Of a DNA stretch of 46,027 nt, positions 3,435 to 42,188 are shown one piece after another. The notes below the pieces were generated by a model. That model ran no database searches, had not been told where the DNA came from, and saw only the letters and a list, made by a program, of their open reading frames with translations. Positions within the stretch are counted from its first letter, which is position 1. Every line of letters starts with the position of its first letter. This DNA comes from Amanita rubescens. Lineage: Eukaryota; Basidiomycota; Agaricomycetes; Agaricales; Amanitaceae. A program made the translations under genes and the position numbers. The stretch lies in assembly GCA_015039365.1 (NCBI GenBank), contig WION01000419.1, positions 1 to 46,027 of the forward strand, given 5' to 3'.

Positions 3435-4133
3435 ATGACTTGGAAACATATTCGTGGTCGTTTCACACGAATTTCTGCTGGAATGGCCCACAACGTTTGG
3501 GGTGTTAACTCTAGTGGTCACGTCTATCGTTACACAGGCTGATGACAGCAGCCCCGTGGGTCCGGGTCCCCGGTACCCTAACTGAAATTACCGCGGCTGC
3601 TGATGGCACGGTTTGGGGTATCAACTCTGCAGGCCACATCTATCGTTATACCTGGGGATCCAGCCCGGGTGATCCCGGTCACTGGGTCAGAATTCCCGGT
3701 GCTCTCAAACGAATCTCTGCTGGATCGCGCCTCAATGTGTGGGGAATCAATGCGGCTGGCCACGTTTTTCGTTACACAGGCGATGACGCCCACCCCTGGG
3801 CTCGAATCCCTGGCACTTTAGCCAGCATTGGCGCGGGTGGCGACGGCAGGGTTTGGGGAGTCAACTCTGCTGGTGCCATTTATCGCTATACCGGGGATAG
3901 AGATACAAGAGACTGGAAACGAATCTCCGGTACCCTTCATGAGATCTCTGTTGGGAACGGAAACCAACGTGTGGGGCGTCAACCAGGCCAACAACATCTT
4001 CAAGTACTCAGGCGATGACACTAACCCCTGGGTTCGAATCAGTGGTGGTTTATCCCATATTGCTGCGGGTGCCGATGGCGTGGTTTGGGGGCTCAACCCA
4101 AACGGCTCTGTTTTCCGCTGGATTCCTACATAA
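3435..4133 (+). pseudogene. Tectonin-like lectin, frameshifted copy 2
   Basis: Second six-blade tectonin frame, closely similar to copy 1. The N-terminal blade from 3435 reads 35 codons and meets a TGA at 3540-3542. The next frame restarts with an ATG sharing that A (TGATG), and encodes blades 2-5 in frame. Comparison with copy 1 suggests an extra T at 3540 and an extra G near 3556. A third shift near 3956 (extra A after GTTGGG) puts the last blades in the original frame, ending at 4133. The protein would need two frame corrections to be whole. Family knowledge as for copy 1: cytoplasmic glycan-binding defence lectin. Most likely a decaying duplicate, unless the assembly is wrong. Confidence 0.8.
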
Positions 4134-26222: not shown

Positions 26223-29200
26223 TCACCTGCCCCGCCCCGCTCTTCTCCCCATCGTTCTGTTCTCGTCCTCTCCCCCCCCGCTACGCTGCGCCTCACTTGC
26301 CCCGTCCTCCCTCTCGGGCTCCCCCATCCTTCTCTCTCGTCTCCTGTTGCCTACTGTGAGCCAGCTGCGTATGTCTCCTCTGGCGTATGTGTTCCACTCT
26401 TCCATTACTCTTCCCTGGGCACTAGCCGCTGCTTGTTCCCTGCAGTTTTGGGTGCTGCGCTCCCTTGGCCCTGTACCGTTCCTCTGGTGCATCCTTGCCG
26501 TGTGTCTGTAACCGTCGAATAGGTCGCTTTGCGTTGTCGCCTGTTTTTTGTCCTGTTTTGACAGCCATGTTATGCGCTTTGTTTTTCTGACGAATTCGGT
26601 GACATAGGTCATATTGCTGTCGTTACCCAAAAGTTTTTTGAGGCCTGTCATGTCACGTTTAACCATTCGACGGAGTTGGGCCCGCGGTTCGTTGTAGGCT
26701 CGGCAGTGGCGTAGCAGGTGGTCCACCGTCTCGTTGTATTGCTTGCAGCCTGGGCAGATTGCGGTTTTGCTTATATTGATGCGGTGAAGATGTGTGTTTA
26801 GGCCGATGTGGCCCGTTTTGAGTTGCGTCCATATGCTGCCTGTGCGGCGGCTGGCCTTCGTCAAGGCTTTCCTGTACCTTTTACCGCTTTCATAGCTGAT
26901 GATTCCTTTGAGCCTCCTCGCTTGAGGGGCCATACGCCAGGCCTCCAGCGCTGCTTCCTTTACTTTTGAGCCGAATTGCTGTTTCGCTGCGGATTTACTA
27001 GCTGGCAGTGGTTTCCTGAACAGCTTCGGGAGTGCCGTCTTGGCGCTGCATGTGCCCGCACTCGCTGCCTTTGCTGCCACGTCTGCTTCCTCATTCCCCT
27101 TTACCCCAACATGGCCTGGCGTCCATCTGATTTTTATTCTTACATTGTTGTTCCTATGTTTAAGTGCATTGATCTGCTCGTGGAATTCATCTAGAATGTA
27201 CTTGCCTGGCCCTTGCTTGTTATCCGTGGATGCTATTATGGCTGCTTGGTTATCAACGTTAATCGTGACGGACTTCACGTTCCGCCTGTTCCTGATTGAG
27301 AAGACCCCGAGGGCCATCGCAGCGCACTCCGCCTCGTAAACTGTGTGTTCTGTAGTAGTCCCTAGATGAAATTGTGTGAGCGCCATTCTTTTTCCTTGCT
27401 TATATATCACCGCCGCGGCGCCAACGCCGTCTTTTGTTAAGGATCCGTCTGTGAATATTTGATATTCAGCCCTGTCTCTGCTGCACTGCGTGATAGCTGT
27501 GTCTTTGTTGTTCGGGATGATGGTTTTTATGTCCGGGTCCCACGAATTGAGGTGGCGTATGGGCGTTACCTTCTCCATCGTGTCCGGCTTGATATTGTAT
27601 GTGTGGAAGAGCTCATGTAGGGGGCTGGGGTGCTTTTTTACGTATCGTCGCGCTGTGTGGTGCACCATACCATGTAGGGGATGTCCTTTAGGGATTGTTG
27701 CCAGGCTAAGGGCTGCATTGTAGCGCCATTTGTCGACTGCTAGGTGTATCGGGAGTAGGTCTGACAGCAGGTTTAGGACGGTACTCGCCGTGGTTCTCAT
27801 GGCACCTGTAATCATTATTGATGCTCGCCGCTGGACCGTCGCAAGCTGGCGCATGACTGTGACATTGTAGGTTGGGCTTGGGTTGGGCGATGTTAGTTTG
27901 TGGCGCCTTTGAGGAGAGAGGAAAACGTCGGTGGCGTAGAGTATTCGGGGCATTGCTATGGTGAGGTAAAGCTGGCGTACAAAGGCGGGGCTGATCCCTT
28001 TGCTGACACGAGCTAAGCGGCCAAATTGGTTGACCCACTTTTCGCCTTTTGCCAGGGCTGCTGCTATATGTGTTTTCCAGTTGAGCCAGCGGTCGATTGA
28101 AACCCCAAGTAGTTTTGCCGATTCCTGTGGTCGGACCTCGTGTCCTCGTATGAGTATTGATTCACCTTCACCTTCTCTACCTGTCGTGATGTTTTTTCCC
28201 CGCAGGAAGTCAATGAGTTGGAACTTTTCTATGCCAAAGGTACAGTTGTGCGTGTCCGCCCATTGTAGGATACCATCATGCCTGTGTAACATGTCTTCAA
28301 TCTTTCGATGAGTTTCTGTGTAGTTGCAGCCTATCGCGAGAATCGTTGTGTCGTCTACAAATAGAATAGCGTCCTCACCGTTTTTCAGGTTTGGCACGTC
28401 TAGGATGTCTGAGTTGTACAACATGTAGGCAATGGGCGAGAGTGGGTCGCCTTGGTCGAGGCCGTTTGTGATGACGAAAACGTCAGATACGTAGTCATCA
28501 AACCTGAGTTGTGTTTTCCTGTTGCCCATTCTGCGCACTATCCAGTCGGTGATCTGTTGGGGGATGCCCCTTATGCGCATGTCGTGTACCAATCTGTCAA
28601 TGCTGACGCTTGGGAAGGCACCCTTTACGTCTAGGAATAGCGCTGAGACAACTTTCCTCTTCCGCCATGTGTCTTTGACCGTCGTGGTTAGATAGTGGAC
28701 CGCTTGTGTTGTCGTGTGGCCCGGGCGAGCTCCGAAGTGGTTTTTTGGCAGAATGTTATGCGTCTCGCATCTATTTGTAATTTCGTTAGCAATGCATGCA
28801 TTGAGTAGGCGAGCAAACCCGTTCGAGAGTGAGATTGGTCTCCACGCATTGGGGGACTCATAGCTTGGCCGGCTTGGCTTCTTTAGGATGACTGTCATGG
28901 TTCGCGCCCATGAATCCGGGTAGTAGTTGAGGTCGAAGGTTGCTCGAAAAAGCGGTCCCAAGTGTGGTAGTAGGATCTGCTTGGCTTCCTTGAAAACGCA
29001 GTTTGGCGCGGTGTCTGGAGCTGTCGCCTTGTATGGGGCCATGTTGTCAATCGCTCTTTCGATCTGCTTGTTGGTTATTGGCTTGAATTCCCATTTTGGC
29101 GGGGGGTATGTGAAATCGCCTAGCACCACATCCTGTAGCGGCTTCTCTGGGAATAGGGCTTCATAGAACATGCGGCTCTTCTGGTCGTTGGTTGTGGCGG

Positions 29201-30476
29201 TGGTGTCGTCTTCACTACCTCTTAGTTTTGCTTTGAGATTGGGTACCCTTGCGCGGCCCGCATCTGTGGGCTCACTGTTAGCATACTTAGCCGCCGTCCA
29301 CACCGTCGTCTCATTGAGGGATTCCAACCATTCAGCCCAGTGGTTGGTTTTAGCTTCACGTATGGCGGCTGTGTATTGATTGCGTAGGCGTCTATATTGT
29401 TCATGCGCGGGATGGTCTAAGTTGAAGCGCTGGTTATAGGAGTTCCTGCCCTTTTTGGTAACTGCCTTTTTTAGCTTCCTCAGGTCGTTAGACCACCAGC
29501 GCTTCGCATGGGGGGAGGCCTTCGCTTTTGGGACGACTTTTTCTATTGTTTCTTGCACAGCTACATCGAGGCTCATTAGCGTTTGGTCAAAGGTACGAAT
29601 GTTGGGGATGGGCTTAGGCTTTGGTATTCCGTTTAGACGAGCTTTCAAAGTTTTCCTGAATTCGTCCCAGTCGGTTTCTTTGAAGTTGAATCGTTCGTGT
29701 TCTTCGTGAAGCGTGACTGAGATGTCGATCTTGGTGATTATCGGGAAGTGGTCAGTGTTCACCGGTTGCTTTTCTGGTTCTGTGTTGCAGTAGATTAGCG
29801 CATCGATCAGTGAGTGGGAGATAAAAACGTTATCCGGCCGTGTGAGATTGCGCGTATTTAGGGCTCGTAGCGTTGGGATGTCTTTAGGGAGGGCCATCTC
29901 CATATCGTTGGTCATCGTCAGGTTAAGAACCGTTTGTGCACGTTCGAGGTTTGTTGGCGTGAACAAGTGAGAATTTCTATTTTCATCCCAATATGGGTGG
30001 TGTCGGTTGAAGTCGCCAAGCCAAATCATGTGCTCGTTGGATTCTTCGTTGTGGTACTCCTGGGCTGCTTGTGATAGGGATCGTAGGGCGTCGTCGTTGT
30101 TTATGTCGTTGTATATATTGAAGATGTTGATTGTTCCAGCGCTTGTCTGGAGCCGGATTGCGGTGACGTCACCAGAGTTTGTGTTTAGGGCGCTCCACGT
30201 GTCTGTGAGGATTGATATGTTGATGAGCATGACTGATCTCGTCTTTTTCGGGCTTGTATAATGGGTGTTTGGGTAGACGACCCTCCATTTTGAGTTTGCT
30301 TTGGTGTTAGTAAAACAGTCAATGAATGGCTCCTGTATGGCGCAGATATCGAACTCGCTAGTTCTTAAGGATTGCAGGAGGTCTTCCTGTGCATTACGGG
30401 ATTTGTTGACGTTCTGTTGCCAAAAGCGTAAATGTCTGTCGTTGAGCGGGGGTGTTCTTAAGGTTGTGCTAAACAT
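26223..30476 (-). CDS. LINE ORF2: endonuclease, reverse transcriptase, RNase H
   Basis: 1417 aa, uninterrupted. The AP-type endonuclease occupies about residues 10-245 (WQQNVNKS, CAIQEPF, WLGDFNRHHPYWD, TDHFPI). Reverse transcriptase spans about 510-780 (LDVKGAFPSV, QGDPLSPIAYMLYN, catalytic FVDDTT near 707). An RNase H domain lies at about 1003-1140 with all four acidic positions visible: TDGS, YEAECAA, VDNQAA and GNEEADVAA. A CCHC-like knuckle (CPGCKQYNETVDHLLRHC) follows near 1245. These activities nick the target, copy element RNA and degrade it. The start codon overlaps the ORF1 stop (TAATG), a layout that implies termination-reinitiation. The last 60 residues are Arg-rich and low in complexity. 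Confidence 0.95.
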   Translation of the reverse strand: MFSTTLRTPPLNDRHLRFWQQNVNKSRNAQEDLLQSLRTSEFDICAIQEPFIDCFTNTKANSKWRVVYPNTHYTSPKKTRSVMLINISILTDTWSALNTNSGDVTAIRLQTSAGTINIFNIYNDINNDDALRSLSQAAQEYHNEESNEHMIWLGDFNRHHPYWDENRNSHLFTPTNLERAQTVLNLTMTNDMEMALPKDIPTLRALNTRNLTRPDNVFISHSLIDALIYCNTEPEKQPVNTDHFPIITKIDISVTLHEEHERFNFKETDWDEFRKTLKARLNGIPKPKPIPNIRTFDQTLMSLDVAVQETIEKVVPKAKASPHAKRWWSNDLRKLKKAVTKKGRNSYNQRFNLDHPAHEQYRRLRNQYTAAIREAKTNHWAEWLESLNETTVWTAAKYANSEPTDAGRARVPNLKAKLRGSEDDTTATTNDQKSRMFYEALFPEKPLQDVVLGDFTYPPPKWEFKPITNKQIERAIDNMAPYKATAPDTAPNCVFKEAKQILLPHLGPLFRATFDLNYYPDSWARTMTVILKKPSRPSYESPNAWRPISLSNGFARLLNACIANEITNRCETHNILPKNHFGARPGHTTTQAVHYLTTTVKDTWRKRKVVSALFLDVKGAFPSVSIDRLVHDMRIRGIPQQITDWIVRRMGNRKTQLRFDDYVSDVFVITNGLDQGDPLSPIAYMLYNSDILDVPNLKNGEDAILFVDDTTILAIGCNYTETHRKIEDMLHRHDGILQWADTHNCTFGIEKFQLIDFLRGKNITTGREGEGESILIRGHEVRPQESAKLLGVSIDRWLNWKTHIAAALAKGEKWVNQFGRLARVSKGISPAFVRQLYLTIAMPRILYATDVFLSPQRRHKLTSPNPSPTYNVTVMRQLATVQRRASIMITGAMRTTASTVLNLLSDLLPIHLAVDKWRYNAALSLATIPKGHPLHGMVHHTARRYVKKHPSPLHELFHTYNIKPDTMEKVTPIRHLNSWDPDIKTIIPNNKDTAITQCSRDRAEYQIFTDGSLTKDGVGAAAVIYKQGKRMALTQFHLGTTTEHTVYEAECAAMALGVFSIRNRRNVKSVTINVDNQAAIIASTDNKQGPGKYILDEFHEQINALKHRNNNVRIKIRWTPGHVGVKGNEEADVAAKAASAGTCSAKTALPKLFRKPLPASKSAAKQQFGSKVKEAALEAWRMAPQARRLKGIISYESGKRYRKALTKASRRTGSIWTQLKTGHIGLNTHLHRINISKTAICPGCKQYNETVDHLLRHCRAYNEPRAQLRRMVKRDMTGLKKLLGNDSNMTYVTEFVRKTKRITWLSKQDKKQATTQSDLFDGYRHTARMHQRNGTGPRERSTQNCREQAAASAQGRVMEEWNTYARGDIRSWLTVGNRRRERRMGEPEREDGASEAQRSGGGEDENRTMGRRAGRGR

Positions 30477-32143
30477 TAAAATGATTTTGTGGGGTTGGGG
30501 CTAGCGGCTGGTGGCGGAGGCGGTAGCGGGTCTTCCCCTTTTGATCCGAACCAGCTGCCTGGTAGGACGTTTTGGATCATGGTACTAATGCCGGAGCCGT
30601 CTTGTCTGTGACCAGGGGCTTCAGCCTGCACGGCGCTTGAGGGGTCGGGGAGAGGGGACTCATTTGGTGTCCATGTGTACGTGTCTGTTTCTATGGGGTA
30701 AAACCTATAGCGCGCATCAGGTGTGAACTTTCGGTAATGTTCGATACTTCTCTCAAAAGAGGGGCAGTCTCTGTCGGCAGCGGAGTGACCATTTTGTTTG
30801 CAGTTGGTGCAGCGGGGGGCTCCGGCGTGTTTGCAATCGGTGGTACTGTGATCCTCTGCACAACGGGCACAGGTGGGGGCACTTTCGGGGCATTGGGCTG
30901 CGCGGTGGTCGCCTTTGACGCTTTGACACTTGAAGCACCTAGTTGGCTCGTTTAGCAGCTTCTCGACAAGGATACGTTTGTTTTCTATAATTAGGCCTGT
31001 TTCAATGACCTGGTTGGCTAGCTCTCTCGTATTGAAACCAAGGATGACGTGTGCGGTGCGCTGGCCTGGCCTCCTGCGTTCCGGGGCCTTGATGTATTTA
31101 GCGTGTGCTATGGCTTCCGTTGGTAGATTGTTGTTGGATTCCACCAGGTTGCGGCTTAGGCGGTCATCAGGGCTGAACTGGGTGGGTACAAATCTAGCGA
31201 GGACGTGGAAGAGGCGCGCGTGGGTTGTATTGGCATCACCCATGTTGCTTGTGAAGCTTTCGAGGTTATCTTTGGATTTGAGCCAGACTGCGGCACTTTT
31301 TGAGTTGATTTGGTAGATAACGGCACCGCTTTTCGTGGTGGTGGCATGGACGAAAGCCGCTCCTTTGGGGACTGGAATACCTATGTTCGTCATGAGCCCC
31401 AAAGCCAAGTCTGCCTTCGTTACGAGCTCCCTGGCCGTGAGACGGAGTATGTCCCTTTTTGTCTCTTCGTTCCTGAAGGTGACGATGATCTGTCGTTCAC
31501 GGTCATTGCCCTTGGCTATGGCTGAAGAGTGGTGGAGCGAGGTGTTGTTTACGGTTGATGCATATGACGGTTTGATCGGAAGGGCCATTTGTGTTGAAGG
31601 TGCCGCGTTGGTTGCGGGGATGGGCGGGGGCTGCGTGGTGGCCTGGGCGTTGAGTACGCACTGTTTAACTGATTCCATCCCCTTCTTTGTCTCCTCCATG
31701 TCCTTCCTTAATTCCTTAACAATTTCCTTATTGTCGGTTGCCAGTCTGGAGACTAGATCTTCCAGTCTTGTGATGGAGTCGCGCTGTGACTCTAGCTCCT
31801 GTGTCAGGTGGGCGTCGTGCTCTTCACATTCAAAGAAGGCGTCGGCTTCTTCTGCCTGCTCGATGACGAAGCAGATGCTGAGCATGCCGTCCGTGAGGAG
31901 TTTGATTGACCTCTTTGGGTTGGTTGCCAGCGTGCGGAGCGCTGTGAGTGCCAACTTTGCGGTCAGCATCTCTTCTTGCTTCAAGAGGTTCAGTCCAGAT
32001 AGGAAGGACCTTGCGCTCTCAACGGAGGTTATTGTGGACTCAGCTGGGTTCCCAGGTTCAGCTATCTTTTTTGAGCGTGGGGTCTTCTTATCACCGCTGC
32101 TGTCTTTTTCTGCCGTACCCGCTGAGCGTGTACTAGCTGGCAT
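30476..32143 (-). CDS. LINE ORF1: gag-like RNA-binding protein
   Basis: 555 aa. The first 250 residues are charged with a predicted coiled coil (ELESQRDSITRLEDLVSRL). An RRM-like or gag central region follows, and three zinc knuckles lie at about residues 400-457: CFKCQSVKGDHRAAQC, CARCAEDHSTTDC and CTNCKQNGHSAADRDC. The C-terminus is Pro-rich. Such proteins coat element RNA and form the ribonucleoprotein used for retrotransposition. The stop TAA shares its last A with the ATG of ORF2. Confidence 0.92.
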   Translation of the reverse strand: MPASTRSAGTAEKDSSGDKKTPRSKKIAEPGNPAESTITSVESARSFLSGLNLLKQEEMLTAKLALTALRTLATNPKRSIKLLTDGMLSICFVIEQAEEADAFFECEEHDAHLTQELESQRDSITRLEDLVSRLATDNKEIVKELRKDMEETKKGMESVKQCVLNAQATTQPPPIPATNAAPSTQMALPIKPSYASTVNNTSLHHSSAIAKGNDRERQIIVTFRNEETKRDILRLTARELVTKADLALGLMTNIGIPVPKGAAFVHATTTKSGAVIYQINSKSAAVWLKSKDNLESFTSNMGDANTTHARLFHVLARFVPTQFSPDDRLSRNLVESNNNLPTEAIAHAKYIKAPERRRPGQRTAHVILGFNTRELANQVIETGLIIENKRILVEKLLNEPTRCFKCQSVKGDHRAAQCPESAPTCARCAEDHSTTDCKHAGAPRCTNCKQNGHSAADRDCPSFERSIEHYRKFTPDARYRFYPIETDTYTWTPNESPLPDPSSAVQAEAPGHRQDGSGISTMIQNVLPGSWFGSKGEDPLPPPPPAASPNPTKSF

Positions 32144-34851: not shown

Positions 34852-35124
34852 TTACCAGACACCGTTGACGACGGGAAGGTTACCCGCAGAGCCGACAGCT
34901 GGAAGGTTACCGACAGAGCCAACGGCGGGAAGGTTACCAACAGAGCCAACGGCGGGAAGGTTGCCGACAGAGCCGACGACGGGAAGGTTACCGGCATCGC
35001 CAAGACTCCCGGGGACACCGCCAATGTTGCTGGTAAGGCCCCCGTTGCCTACAGAGTTGACAGGAGCGGCGGCGACAAAAATGGCGAAGGCGGCCACGGC
35101 AACAACAGCGAGTTTGGAGAACAT
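34852..35124 (-). CDS. Small secreted protein with tandem nine-residue repeats
   Basis: 90 aa on the minus strand, good start context (CACCAAAATG). A signal peptide (MFSKLAVVAVAAFAIFVAAA) is followed by a repeat region made of units like VGNLPAVGS, five to six copies encoded by 27-nt direct repeats. It contains no cysteine and no known domain. A TATA-like CATAAAAGG lies about 130 nt upstream (near 35247-35256, minus strand). The frame ends TGGTAAGTAG, and GGTAAGTAG is also a good 5' splice site, so the true protein could continue into an undetected exon. Repetitive secreted peptides of this type occur in fungal surface or effector proteins, but I assign no function. Confidence 0.65.
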   Translation of the reverse strand: MFSKLAVVAVAAFAIFVAAAPVNSVGNGGLTSNIGGVPGSLGDAGNLPVVGSVGNLPAVGSVGNLPAVGSVGNLPAVGSAGNLPVVNGVW

Positions 35125-37107: not shown

Positions 37108-40100
37108 ATGTCGCAGCTGCAACTTGCAAACGCTAATCTTGTAGGGACTCATGAGTCTCACAGATTTCTTCTCTAATACTCGAGCAGGCTATTGAGCGCT
37201 TTCGAATCTTGGTCATCGGTAACGCCAACGCCGGCAAGACAACCATTCTGAAGAAGGTGTGCCATGCCCAGGGTCGTGAACCGATTTGTTTCAATAGAGA
37301 TGGTGAACCGGTGTGTCACCTGCTTTTCTGAATGTCGCCAAGGCTTAGTATTCATTCGCCCTTGTTAGATTGCTGCAGAGTTGAAACCGGATGCCTCGGT
37401 GTGTTTCGGATGTATCTGTATCCCGGGCCTTCTTTTATGACAAATCAATGCAATTTCGCAGCGCGGAGAACATGATATAGAAGACAGTTTTCAATATCCA
37501 ACAGCTCACGGCTTCATTTTTCACGATTCCCGTGGGTTCGAGGCAGGTGCTACTGGCGAACTGGATAATGTTACAGATTTCATAAAGAAACGAGCTGAGA
37601 GAGAGGAATTGAAGGATCGGCTTCATGCAATTTGGTGCGCTAAGATCTGCAACATATTGTAATTTTCTGAATTTTCTCCTGCCGCTCAGGTATTGCATCC
37701 CGACTAGCAATGATAGACCGATGACGGAAGCGGGGAAGAAATTATTTGAGATTGACACCGGAAACGGTTGGCAAACGTCTGCATCACCTACTAAACGCAT
37801 TGCTTATTCTAATACAAGTTCCTGTCATTGCGATCTTCACGAAAATGGATGGTCTCGAAGACAGGGCGTTTAACCGGCTAGCAATGGATGGTATTTTCGA
37901 CGAAGAGAAGGCCACGGCCGAGGCAAAAGCTACATTCGAACGCAACTATCTGGAGCCACTTGAAGCGGTAAAGCACAAGCCGTGCCATACCATAAAACTA
38001 CGTGGTATGTTGCTCACATCGACGGTAAGAGCGACAAGCTCAACCATTCTCCACACAGACATGGACAAGGAAGGCACTATTTGCGACGAGCTGATCCTGA
38101 GGACATCACAGGCCCTCGACGGCGATGCTCTAAAGTTGTTCTGTCTCTCAATCCTTCGGAATGATATGGAATCTCGTATCAAAGATGTTATCAACAAGTG
38201 GGCCATTGCCTCTTCCTCCCAGATAACCAGTAACTGATACGATACTACAGGATAATTATACCAAAGGCAAAAGGTGAGGAAAACATCGACTATGTCTTCG
38301 ATCGGTAACTATCGTTCTCCCTTAGAGGCTCGTGAATCGGTCTCGTTTTCGAATGAACAAGCAAAATCGTTGTTCTGTGACGTGATGTGTCGCTTTCCGC
38401 ACATGCTGGTACGCATGCACACTCGTTATATTTAATTATTCACTCCCGTGCTTACAAATGTCAACAATCCCGCCACAGCCCGTACGTAATAGTTATATCG
38501 CCTGCCCTTCCTCTGCTAATCATCCTTGGCAGAGTGTGAGCGTCCTTGCATCAGTCGATGACATCTGGAAGCTATTAATCACCCAATTACCTTGCATCAC
38601 TCTCAGTTTGTAAGTACCTCATTGCCCTGATTGTCATTGCTTGTCCTATTCGTCATGATACTCAAACGCAACATGAACTTCAGGAAGTAGGTCTTAGGCT
38701 ACCGTGACGTTCCTGGGGGTAAGGTCATCACTGATACCCTCGTTCGCTCCTCCCCTCCATAGAAGGTATGTAACTGGTTATTTGGGAGGGAACTAGCTTG
38801 CTTTATCAACTTTTTTCATCTTCGCAGCTAGTGAGTTCTTCACTACGGTTGATACTCTGATGGTTCTTATGGAAATATTCCTTATCGGTTGTCCACAGAT
38901 TGTGAGTGCTGTGGATGTTCAATTTGGCTGTACATTGTTGATAATGTTGATGGCAGCATGTGAGGTCTTGATCATTTTTTGAGTGGTGAATGTCTCATTC
39001 AATCTTATTGGATATAGAATGTGAGTCTCTCTGACAGTTGTGTGCTCTAGTTCTTGGCTATAGTGATTAATTAATAATTACTTGGTATCTATAGATGGCA
39101 AGTTATTCATGACACTAGTACTGCACTCACTGTGCCTGACCATATGATTCAACTAATCTTCAGGATGTGAGTATAGGCTACATCAATGACATAACCATCT
39201 GCACTGCCTAATGTTGTGCCCAACTTTTATTCAAACCATACAGGAAGTGGGTGTGCTTGTGTTGATACACCGGGGACAGATAATCTTACACATCACCAGA
39301 ATGTGAACTTTATTTGGACCTTTGATGGCATACATCATCTACTTACAATCATTCCTGGATTGGTGTATATCAGGCTGTGAGTTGGAATGTTCCTCAACCC
39401 AATCACAGTGGTGTACCAATGGCCTCATCATGGCATTGAACAGGTTGATGTAAGTTTTGGCTTGGTGCTCTCTCACTGAGTTACAAATGCTGTATTTGAA
39501 GGCTGTATGTACTATCCTACACCAACAATTTCAAACTTAACTAATAAATACTTTGTCTGATTTGCAGGCGGTATATGTCATCTGCTCTTCATGACCACTT
39601 ATTGATTGTTGCATTGGTCAATACTTGGCATTGCAGTGCGTAAGTTTGTTCCATCATCAGCATCACCAACTTCTGATATGTGGTGTAGGAGGTATGTGAT
39701 TAGTTTGTCCTTTATTTTTGAATGACATTGGGGTGGATATCAGACTGTATATATAATTGTGGGTTTACTTTTACCAGCAATTAGCAGATCATATTTGCAT
39801 TTGCTTATAACTCACATATCTACTTTGCACCACTGGTGTGCTCTTCACAGGATGTGAATTTGCAATTTTTCTGTTGTGACCAGCCCCTCACAGCTTACCT
39901 CTGCTCTTCACAGCAAGTGAGTTTCTGACTTTTCTGTTGTGATCAGCCCCTCACAGCTCACCTCTGCTCTTCACAGCAAGTGAGTTGCTGACTTTTCTGT
40001 TGTGATCAGCCCCTCACAGCTCACCTCTGCTCTTCACAGTTTGTGAGTTTCTGACTTTTCTGTTGTGATCAGCCCCTCACAGCTCACCTCTACTCTTCAC

Positions 40101-42188
40101 AGATTGTGAGTTTCTGACTTTTCTGTTGTGATCAGCCCCTCATAGCTCACCTCTGCTCTTCACAGCGAGCGAGTTTCTGACTTTTCTGTTGTGATCAGCC
40201 CCTCACAGCTCATCTCTGCTCTTCACAGGATGTAAGTTTCTGACTTTTCTGTTGTGATCAGCCCCTCACAGCTCACCTCTGCTCTTCACAGCAAGTGAGT
40301 TTCTGAATTTTATGTTGTGATCAGCCCCTCACAGCTCACCTCTGCTCTTCATAGCGAGTGAGTTTCTGACTTTTCTGTTGTGATCAGTTCCTCACAGCTC
40401 ACCTCTGCTCTTCACAGCGAGTGAGTTTCTGACTTTTTTGTTGTGATCAGCCCCACAGCTCACCTCTACTCTTCACAGGATGTGAGTTTCTGACTTTTCT
40501 GTTGTGATCAGCCCCTCACAGTTCATCTCTACTCTTCACAGGATGTGAGTTTCTCACTTTCCTGTTGTCTCTCACAGCTCACCTATGCTTTTCACAGATT
40601 GTGAGTTTCTGACTTTTCTGTTGTGATCAGCCCCTCACAACTCACCTCTGCTCTTCACAGTTTGTGAGTTTCTGACTTTCCTGTTGTGATCAGCCCCTCA
40701 CAGCTCACCTCTGCTCTTCACAGTTTGTGAGTTTCTGACTTTTCTGTTGTGATCAGCTCACAGCTCACCTTTGCTCATCACAGCTTGTGAGTTTCTGACT
40801 TTTCTGTTGTGATCAGTCCCTCACAGCTCACCTCTGCTCTTCACAGATTGTGAGTTTCTGACTTTTCTGTTGTGATCAGCACCTCATGGCTCACCTATGA
40901 TCTTCACAGATTGTGAGTTTCTGACTTTTCTGTTGTGATCAGCCCCTCATATCTCACCTCTGCTCTTCACAGCGAGTGAGTTGCTGGCTAAGTTTTCTGT
41001 TGTGATCAGCCCCTCACAGATCACCTCTGCTCTTCACAGCAAGTGAGTTTCTGAATTTTATGTTGTGATCAGCCCCTCACAGCTCACCTCTGCTCTTCAT
41101 AGGGAGTGAGTTTCTGACTTTTCCGTTGTGATCAGTTCCTCACAGCTAACCTCTGCCCTTCACAGGATGTGAGTTTCTGACTTTTACATTGTGATCAGCC
41201 CCTCACAGCTCACCTCTGCTCTTCACAGCGAGTGAGTTTCTGACTTTTCTGTTGTGATCAGCCCCTCACAGCTCATCTCTGCTCTTCACAGGATGTGAGT
41301 TTCTGACTTTCCTGTTGTCCTCACAGCTTACCTCTGCTCTTCACAGGATGTGAGTTTCTGACTTTTCTGTTGTGATCAGCCCCTCACATTTCATCTCTGC
41401 TCTTCACAGGATGTGAGTTTCTGACTTTTCTGTTGTGATCAGTCCCTCATAGCTCACCTCTCCTCTTCATAGTATGTGAGTTTCTGACTTTTCTGTTGTG
41501 ATCAGCCCTTCACAGCTCACCTCAGCAAGTGAGTTTCTCACTTTTCTGTTGTGATCAGCTCCTCACAGTTCACCTCTGCCCTTCAACACAGGATGTGAGT
41601 CACTGCACAAAATCAATATTTGATTGCTTTTTGATCCTTGCATCCTTCTTTTGAAATGTGTCCAGAATGTATGTGCCTATCTTATGTGTTACTTCCACTC
41701 TTTCATGCCATTTCATCTTCTACTCTCCAATATATGTCCAAACTGATTGCTTTGTGTGGTTTTATAGGACCATCAAAGTTTGGAGCAGTGCTTCGAGCTT
41801 ATCTTGCCATTCATACCACTGCAGGTGTGGTACCTTTGTTACAATCTAGGCTAGTTGCCTTATCATCATTCAACTTCACTTAGGATTCTTATCAACTTCA
41901 AGCTATGTGGATTGGCCTCAGTATGTTTTAACATTCTCTGCCATCATTGATGTCTCACTGATCTAGCACTTCATAGTGGCTGCAGCTGTTGCAGATCTCT
42001 GCTTATTTGCCTCTCTCTCAATATCCCATGAGACCTTTCAGGAGACTTTTGACTTCTGTCTAAATGCAGCATCATATCTGAAACTCAAGTCTGCTGCAGA
42101 GCAACAGTCTTCTACTATCATTTATGCCAATGTAGTCCTGGACATCCTGAAGGAGAATAGGGACAATTACAAGTTGTCACTGCAGTGA
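37108..42188 (+). CDS. Fungal P-loop GTPase whose C-terminal part is encoded by one-codon exons
   Basis: Seven ordinary exons: 37108-37140, 37188-37310, 37369-37398, 37462-37634, 37690-37766, 37819-38004, 38059-38229. They encode a GTPase of the family expanded in mushrooms: G1 GNANAGKTT, G3 HDSRGFE, G4 TKMD, plus ELKDRLHAIW. If the GTAACT at 38230 is not spliced, the protein ends at 38237 (266 aa). If it is spliced to 38326 (intron 96 nt), the frame continues in phase through exon 8 (38326-38408), fifty micro-exons, and exons 41768-41824, 41884-41920 and 41977-42188. That gives 61 exons and 444 aa. Alternatively the second part is its own gene with an ATG at 38292 (191 aa), only 54 nt after the GTPase stop. 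I favour one gene: the spacing is too short for a promoter, and VADLCLF near the end resembles the C-terminal helical part of this GTPase family (weak). GTPase part certain; linkage inferred. Confidence 0.7.
38409..41767 (+). other. Array of fifty one-codon micro-exons separated by short introns
   Basis: From the donor at 38409 to the acceptor at 41767, each intron ends in AG, is followed by exactly 3 nt (once 6 nt, GTTGAT at 39444-39449), and the next donor follows at once. Ordered codons 1-10: CCC 38479, AGT 38533, TTT 38607, GAA 38684, AAG 38763, CTA 38828, ATT 38899, CAT 38957, AAT 39018, ATG 39095. Codons 11-20: GAT 39164, GAA 39244, AAT 39300, GCT 39374, GTTGAT 39444, GCT 39502, GCG 39568, TGC 39637, GAG 39689, ACT 39744. 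Then 21-49 in the 63-bp repeat (39851 to 41594) and AAT at 41666. Introns in the first part are 49-104 nt with unrelated sequences. Donors are good (GTGAGT, GTAAGT, GTATGT); two are GC (39098, 40169). All exons are phase 0, and the frame agrees with the flanking normal exons. No cDNA evidence is available here. Confidence 0.75.
39841..41600 (+). repeat. 63-bp tandem repeat: 60-nt intron plus one variable codon
   Basis: About 28 units. The consensus intron starts GTGAGTTTCTGACTTTTC, continues TGTTGTGATCAGCCCCTC, and ends CACCTCTGCTCTTCACAG; then comes one codon. Exact 63-bp spacing holds from 39914 to 40418, with a few shorter units later. Codons in order from 39851: GAT CAA CAA TTT ATT CGA; GAT CAA CGA CGA GAT GAT; ATT TTT TTT CTT ATT ATT; CGA CAA GGA GAT CGA GAT; GAT GAT TAT CAA GAT. 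Introns marked by GAATTTTATG and TTCATAG recur twelve units apart (40295 and 41043), so a twelve-unit block was itself duplicated. Possible branch sites are CTGAC near the donor or CTCACC 15-20 nt before the acceptor. Confidence 0.9.

Follow-up and report, generated by a model that had tools for sequence, protein, structure and literature searches.

A micro-exon array in a GTPase gene of Amanita rubescens

The window analyzed here, i.e., the whole 46,027-nucleotide stretch of Amanita rubescens DNA (contig WION01000419.1, positions 1–46,027), contains a forward-strand gene with nine ordinary exons for a GTPase part, a long array of codon-sized micro-exons, and three exons for a C-terminal part. 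The nine ordinary exons (37108–37140, 37188–37310, 37369–37398, 37462–37634, 37690–37766, 37819–38004, 38059–38197, 38251–38273, and 38326–38408) give a spliced translation that ends in ...RFPHML, and the A. rubescens NCBI model P0001 is the same protein as far as FPHML. A previous examination of the letters alone (hereafter the sequence-only reading) had claimed that 50 consecutive micro-exons, 49 of them a single codon, occupy 38409–41767. The splice parse agrees with this exactly: the interval consists of 51 introns and 50 micro-exons (38479 to 41668), and the micro-exons are 3 nt long in 49 of 50 cases, the other being a single 6-nt exon at 39444–39449. The introns range from 49 to 104 nt and have the GT/GC...AG borders expected from that reading, with 49 GT donors, two GC donors (directly after 39095–39097 and after 40166–40168), and AG at every acceptor. 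The joined micro-exon codons read PSFEKLIHNMDENAVDAACETDQQFIRDQRRDDIFFLIIRQGDRDDDYQDN, with zero stops. All micro-exons in the window are multiples of three and the introns are in phase 0. One reading frame is shared by the nine upstream exons (37108–38408), the array, and the three downstream exons (41768–42188); the spliced translation likewise shows the claimed continuity from 38408 to 41768, up to a stop at 42188.

The array has two parts. After a first GT...AG intron of 70 nt (38409–38478), micro-exons 1–20 (38479–39746) comprise 19 one-codon exons and one two-codon exon separated by unrelated introns, in the order CCC AGT TTT GAA AAG CTA ATT CAT AAT ATG GAT GAA AAT GCT GTTGAT GCT GCG TGC GAG ACT. 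The sequence-only reading was right that these first 20 lie between unrelated introns, and a 63-bp tandem repeat spans 39839–41585 (28.1 copies by tandem-repeat detection), the unit of which is a near-constant intron plus a variable codon. Micro-exons 21–50 (39851–41668) are 30 single codons, GAT CAA CAA TTT ATT CGA GAT CAA CGA CGA GAT GAT ATT TTT TTT CTT ATT ATT CGA CAA GGA GAT CGA GAT GAT GAT TAT CAA GAT AAT. Those numbered 21–49 lie inside or at the edge of the 63-bp units, and micro-exon 50 (AAT) follows a unique intron. The three C-terminal exons (41768–41824, 41884–41920, and 41977–42188) start with DHQSLEQCFELILPFIPLQ and end in NYKLSLQ and a stop.

For a comparison with chance, sites matching YAG-NNN-G[TC]RNGN and chains of properly spaced sites were counted, with 300 dinucleotide shuffles as the null. 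The whole array (3,359 bp) has 44 sites and a longest chain of 29, whereas the shuffles have a mean of 1.0 and a longest chain of 2. Over its first 1,442 bp, which hold the unrelated introns, the array has 15 sites and a chain of 12, compared to 0.44 sites and a chain of 2 in the shuffles. No chain longer than one site was found in the window outside the array (38.4 kb on both strands and 3.8 kb on the forward strand only), and the reverse strand of the array has no signal sites. A pure repeat artifact was considered and ruled out: the introns around the first 20 exons are unrelated, the signal there exceeds that of the shuffles, and open reading frames (ORFs) of relatives carry such codons.

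Joined codons in intron-free reading frames of relatives

A protein search with the 441-aa conceptual protein of the window gene gave 948 matches, of which the best 120 were considered; the top match is P0001 of A. rubescens. Among the first 22 matches are ten JGI entries, and all of these except P0020 form the set of nine JGI ORFs compared here. These ORFs should be derived from spliced RNA, because the genome splits such codons by introns. P0002 is a 449-aa intron-free ORF on a 1,800-base contig; it covers 100% of the 441-aa protein with 60% identity and runs from the GTPase part through the array into the C-terminal part. Its FPHML-PSFDKLINDMDKNAVNAMRES corresponds to FPHML-PSFEKLIHNMDENAVDAACET of the window exons, with 13 of 21 residues identical, and the sister locus 777A has 17 of 21. 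P0002 is colinear with micro-exons 1–20 of the window, as is P0121, a 197-aa JGI ORF, by way of the sister locus 408B. When compared to spliced 408B, P0121 has 45 of 46 residues equal upstream of the array, 25 of 25 residues without a gap over the 20 micro-exons with unique introns (18 of 3 nt, one of 6 nt, and one of 15 nt), and 98 of 99 residues in the C-terminal exons. Between these segments, P0121 has a 27-residue array that is unlike that of 408B and consists solely of residues from the array-codon repertoire. With almost identical flanks and a different array, P0121 may represent another individual of the same species.

The residue of the first micro-exon (Pro) follows FPHML or FPHSL in all nine JGI ORFs, and P0002, P0005, P0007, and P0010 contain at least 17 micro-exon residues each. 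A segment equivalent to micro-exons 21–50 is present in P0002, P0010, P0121, P0122, and P0123, and the C-terminal exons are kept in P0002, P0121, P0122, and P0123. When the C-terminal region of P0002 served as the query, P0002 and P0005 were the only matches. Because these intron-free public ORFs contain the codons joined in order, the micro-exons are very probably coding. The sequence-only reading had named transcripts that contain none of the triplets as evidence against it; the opposite was found in relatives, the intron-free ORFs of which, apparently of RNA origin, hold the triplets.

Public gene models have a different end. The NCBI models P0001, P0004, P0006, P0011–P0014, and P0016 (from A. 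rubescens, A. muscaria, and Russula decolorans) end 5–14 residues after the FPHML-type motif, and the ninth model inspected, P0003 (Lactifluus), ends before it. None of the nine has array codons. These model ends suggest that automatic annotation fails at the same array in those species too, which amounts to a blind spot, with eight of the nine models stopping at about the first array intron.

Sister loci and a distant paralog

Copies of the window locus with about 99% identity are found on four further contigs, complete on C768, C397, and C773 and from inside the array onward on C582. The three complete copies differ from the window at 2–3 of 153 micro-exon nucleotides and 14–21 of 3,206 intron bases. 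C582 was left out of this comparison, given that its contig begins inside the array and global alignment forced false differences.

The sister locus 777A (86% identity) has 56 micro-exons, the first 19 of which match those of the window one-to-one despite differing intron lengths; the same one-to-one match of micro-exons 1–19 was found at 777B and 408B. At these four loci, the lengths of the first 19–20 micro-exons stay multiples of three while the intron lengths differ. When 15-nt exons are allowed, the parse of 777A gives AGCATAAATATGACT, which reads SINMT, and SINMT is also found in P0121. Contigs C408 and C777 can be aligned along 18.6 kb with 98.8% identity. They have common codons in their A arrays, which are also present on C133, and their second arrays differ. 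The 777A codons are identical on three contigs and are free of the exon-length problem of 408B described below.

At C777:144983 and 151577, the sister array is split by an LTR-type (long terminal repeat) element; it starts with TGTCAAG, ends with GTGACA, and has ACAGC on both sides, as judged by eye. Array 777B ends in this element and 777C starts after its end. The sister array is therefore interrupted, and 777B and 777C are probably two pieces of one gene. TGA triplets noted in the C777 array at 142–145 kb were rejected as codons, being overlaps of the search pattern (GAG TGA GTTTGT).

A search with the G domain gave 209 matches including the gene's own copies, and two others, on C29 and C439, were inspected. 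The C29 paralog (C29:11601–13000) is distant, with 50% identity over 108 residues of the GTPase part when introns are disregarded and with three TAA in the stretch. It contains 11 YAG-NNN-GT-type sites in 1.4 kb, with a chain of five and unrelated introns, compared to 0.37 sites and a chain of one in the shuffle. By eye, its array begins after an exon reading VLSKFPHFW. The claim of the sequence-only reading that the triplets are real translated exons is thereby supported by the ORFs of relatives, by the layout of the sister loci and of this paralog, and by the absence of stops.

Variation within the repeat part

Five array sequences (window, 777A, 777B, 777C, and 408B) were compared by the per-site differences between units with 60-nt introns. 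The introns are nearly uniform and the codons are not: 0.074 for introns versus 0.629 for codons in the window (21 units), 0.005 versus 0.617 at 777A (33 units), 0.025 versus 0.632 at 777B (24 units), 0.023 versus 0.559 at 777C (15 units), and 0.0012 versus 0.566 at 408B (54 units). The introns are identical in 28 of 33 units at 777A and in 52 of 54 at 408B. Adjacent codons at 777A differ at 55% of sites. The array peptides of the window, 777A, 777B, 777C, 408B, P0121, and P0002 align no better than shuffles, with one of 21 pairs at P < 0.01 (window and 777C, 0.007). Adjacent identical codons, compared to shuffles, gave P values of 0.001 at 777A, 0.019 at 408B, 0.052 at 777B, 0.11 at 777C, and 0.13 in the window. 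The excess is clear only at 777A and weak at 408B; single units duplicated in tandem can therefore be made out only in part.

The codon usage of the arrays is narrow. The five repeat parts have no stop among 155 triplets, compared to 7.3 expected if positions are independent (P = 5e-4, a rough value as the repeats are related). T is the first base in none of 70 NAA/NGA codons and in 22 of the 85 others (Fisher P = 5.6e-7); with 408B excluded, the counts are 0 of 54 and 19 of 52 (P = 1.7e-7), both values being rough for the same reason. C is absent from the second position in all 155 array codons, whereas the ordinary exons of the window gene have it in 88 of 390. The third base is A or T in 153 of 155 array codons and G or C in two, compared to 196 and 194 of 390 ordinary codons, respectively. 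This narrow alphabet may partly reflect a splicing constraint, as AG at an exon end would be a second acceptor, although AAG, GAG, and CAG exons do occur in the part with unique introns. In the variable segment of P0002, 37 of 38 residues can be encoded by NNT, compared to 77% elsewhere in P0002, a pattern noticed post hoc.

The GTPase and its C-terminal part

The 441-aa translation contains, by eye, GNANAGKTT, DSRG, and TKMD, which we take to be the G-domain motifs (P-loop GxxxxGKT, DxxG, and T/NKxD) of TRAFAC-type GTPases. Judged from these motifs, the window gene encodes a G-domain GTPase. A Pfam scan of the full conceptual protein with E values up to 1 matched six GTPase-type families, including G-alpha, Arf, and MMR_HSR1, all below their own cut-offs; the same scan gave no match to a NACHT domain or to ankyrin repeats. 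A sequence profile search against PDB gave no match with E < 0.025. In the AlphaFold model of P0002, the G domain is confident: of the first 29 ten-residue blocks, 24 score at least 80. A Foldseek search with this model found mitofusin, G-alpha, and septin chains, i.e., the generic GTPase fold only.

Interpretation and alternative explanations

The window GTPase gene very likely has its 50 consecutive micro-exons spliced in order into the mRNA, where they would encode what is likely a hypervariable recognition segment between the GTPase and a conserved, predicted-helical C-terminal part. Fungal introns are generally recognized by intron definition. Most likely, the pre-mRNA of the window locus is spliced in this manner; each intron of 49–104 nt would be recognized singly, and 3-nt exons would be no obstacle. 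The 63-bp units may multiply and become homogenized by unequal exchange or gene conversion, and selection, perhaps together with a codon-directed process, may keep the codons different and free of stops. The product would consist of two conserved parts and, between them, a variable segment in which D, E, Q, R, F, L, and I are frequent and which is predicted, at low confidence, to be helical. Because the exons are multiples of three and the introns are in phase 0, gain or loss of units as well as exon skipping keeps the frame. Such frame-neutral units leave the protein intact when the length and sequence of the segment change. Truffle NACHT-ANK genes and Podospora WD-repeat NLRs suggest, by analogy, that the array segment may recognize nonself.

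Several observations weigh against this interpretation. The evidence for joined codons comes from ORFs of relatives, the RNA origin of which we infer from the absence of introns, and splicing at the window locus is predicted. Some ORFs enter an apparent intron (P0008 after one codon, P0017 after two, P0009 after four, and P0005 after about 22), indicating that splicing may be incomplete; translating the corresponding intron of the window from its start likewise gives the VSVLA of P0017, and the pattern would fit splicing in a 5'-to-3' order. Better conservation of the first 19 micro-exons than of their introns was looked for between the window and 777A and was not found: the exons differ at 10 of 60 bases, with 12 of the 19 identical, and the introns at 132 of 1,135 aligned bases in addition to 170 gap columns. 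The comparison speaks for a conserved layout; it is no evidence of purifying selection on the codons. Locus 408B (C408:19398–24394, minus strand) has eight frame-breaking exons of 2 or 4 nt (GA, GA, CA, GATT, GAAT, CTGA, GTTA, and GATT). These may be blends of neighboring codons, with an assembly consensus error being likely and decay being possible; because such an error is likely, no weight should be placed on the near-perfect intron identity of 408B. At 777B, one unit has CT in place of the donor GT, which may be an assembly error or decay. The other G-domain match, on C439, has no array in the 2 kb inspected. Moreover, the AlphaFold model of P0002 is poor after the G domain, with low-confidence helices and a block pLDDT (predicted local distance difference test) of 42–61 in the micro-exon segment (residues 295–353).

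A possible but rather unlikely alternative is that the micro-exons are mainly optional and that codon skipping yields many protein variants per gene, as reported for the truffle NACHT-ANK genes. Exon lengths in multiples of three and phase-0 borders throughout would suit such a system, as would the apparent retained introns into which some ORFs run. In addition, the last Asn before the C-terminal exon is present in the window, 777A, P0002, P0122, and P0123 but missing in P0121, which may reflect skipping. However, P0121 has all 20 micro-exons with unique introns of 408B without a gap, and the donor after that Asn codon, by eye, is GTACAT at 408B compared to GTACGT at 777A, which could explain the missing Asn without regulation. 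One or two sequences per locus type were compared here.

A bolder version of the ordered-splicing interpretation, which must be considered doubtful, is that the unit of intron plus codon is a diversity cassette, in which one intron is copied repeatedly while a codon-targeted process rewrites the codon, giving an individual-specific recognition peptide across a family of mushroom GTPases. The reason for considering it is that most introns at 777A are identical while the adjacent codons differ at more than half of their sites, which is more than selection on ordinary mutations would easily give.

It is improbable that the codons once formed an old continuous coding stretch and that a single mobile intron (introner) broke it up by inserting a copy of itself after each codon. 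The near-identical introns with unrelated exons (28 of 33 at 777A and 52 of 54 at 408B) are what such insertions would leave. However, a search with four units gave at least 123 matches, and the matches listed are all on C353, C768, C397, C773, C582, C777, C408, and C133, at these genes. The array codons are also unlike ordinary ones in their second and third bases (second base C in 0 of 155 versus 88 of 390; third base G or C in 2 of 155 versus 194 of 390), and the arrays of P0121 and of the sister genes vary in length and resist alignment with one another (one of 21 pairs at P < 0.01).

Finally, the view that the array is one large intron or an intergenic repeat, with untranslated triplets and a protein that ends near FPHML, is hardly credible: although eight of nine NCBI models end 5–14 residues after the FPHML-type motif, none has array codons, and, between the window and 777A, conservation of the first 19 micro-exons does not exceed that of their introns, the intron-free ORFs of relatives contain the joined codons and the C-terminal exons, 155 triplets have no stop, the first 19–20 micro-exons keep lengths that are multiples of three at four loci with differing intron lengths, and the tails of the NCBI models (VRICS and VRTRS) look like automatic read-through into the first intron.

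Relation to known systems

Many successive tiny in-frame exons are known from the micro-exon genes of schistosomes and the bicycle genes of aphids, where most exons exceed one codon and encode proteins unrelated to the Amanita GTPase. Near-identical introns in many copies are known as introner elements; unlike these, the Amanita copies are confined to one gene family among the matches listed.

The sequence-only reading knew of no gene with dozens of one-codon exons, and this part of it does not stand. According to passages that credit Iotti et al. (2012), the NACHT-ANK (nank) genes of Tuber melanosporum have dozens of 3-bp exons with alternative splicing (PMC4986451, PMC9815663, PMC10197012, PMC3689799). 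A passage of another source states that functional micro-exons are undescribed in filamentous fungi, although it cites Iotti et al. (2012) (PMC11121469). As described in those passages, the truffle genes resemble the Amanita gene in having dozens of 3-bp exons, a P-loop family, and an ectomycorrhizal fungus as their bearer, and the truffle exons are tied to diversification of a C-terminal recognition part. In contrast, Amanita belongs to Basidiomycota; the protein of its gene has a GTPase-type G domain and matches neither NACHT nor ankyrin, and in it the array is followed by a conserved C-terminal part. The unit of constant intron and variable codon is a further difference as far as the descriptions of the truffle genes say. 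The HNWD/WD-repeat NLR genes of Podospora anserina, as presented in a passage of PMC4986451, are similar in having tandem units, concerted evolution, and a few variable codons per unit; however, their units are coding WD repeats, whereas the Amanita unit is an intron and one codon.

Judging by these passages, the codon-sized micro-exon array is a kind already known from truffles, and the phylum, the protein family, and the conserved C-terminal part are different here. No report of such a gene in Amanita or other Agaricomycetes was found in the literature searched by title, start of abstract, and passages, in which subscription journals are thinly covered. If splicing at the window locus follows that of its relatives, a gene read at nearly one codon per exon over 50 exons would be an extreme case of intron-definition splicing. 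A basidiomycete GTPase would then share the device with the NLR-type genes of truffles, and receptors that change fast may have arrived at it repeatedly. The 63-bp unit, moreover, offers a natural experiment on how a codon can come to evolve far faster than the surrounding DNA.

Other features of the window

A non-LTR retrotransposon lies at 26223–32143 on the minus strand, with a 1417-aa ORF that has endonuclease, reverse transcriptase, and RNase H matches. This ORF is preceded by a 555-aa ORF that has no Pfam match and, by eye, CCHC-like cysteine motifs. Two tectonin-domain ORFs (Pfam PF19193) are located on the plus strand at 1843–2418 and 3542–4018, with E values of 4.7e-47 and 8.5e-36, respectively. 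Finally, a 27-bp tandem repeat with 4.7 copies is found at 34868–34993; on the minus strand, it lies within a 90-aa ORF that has a signal-peptide-like start and GSVGNLPAV repeats.

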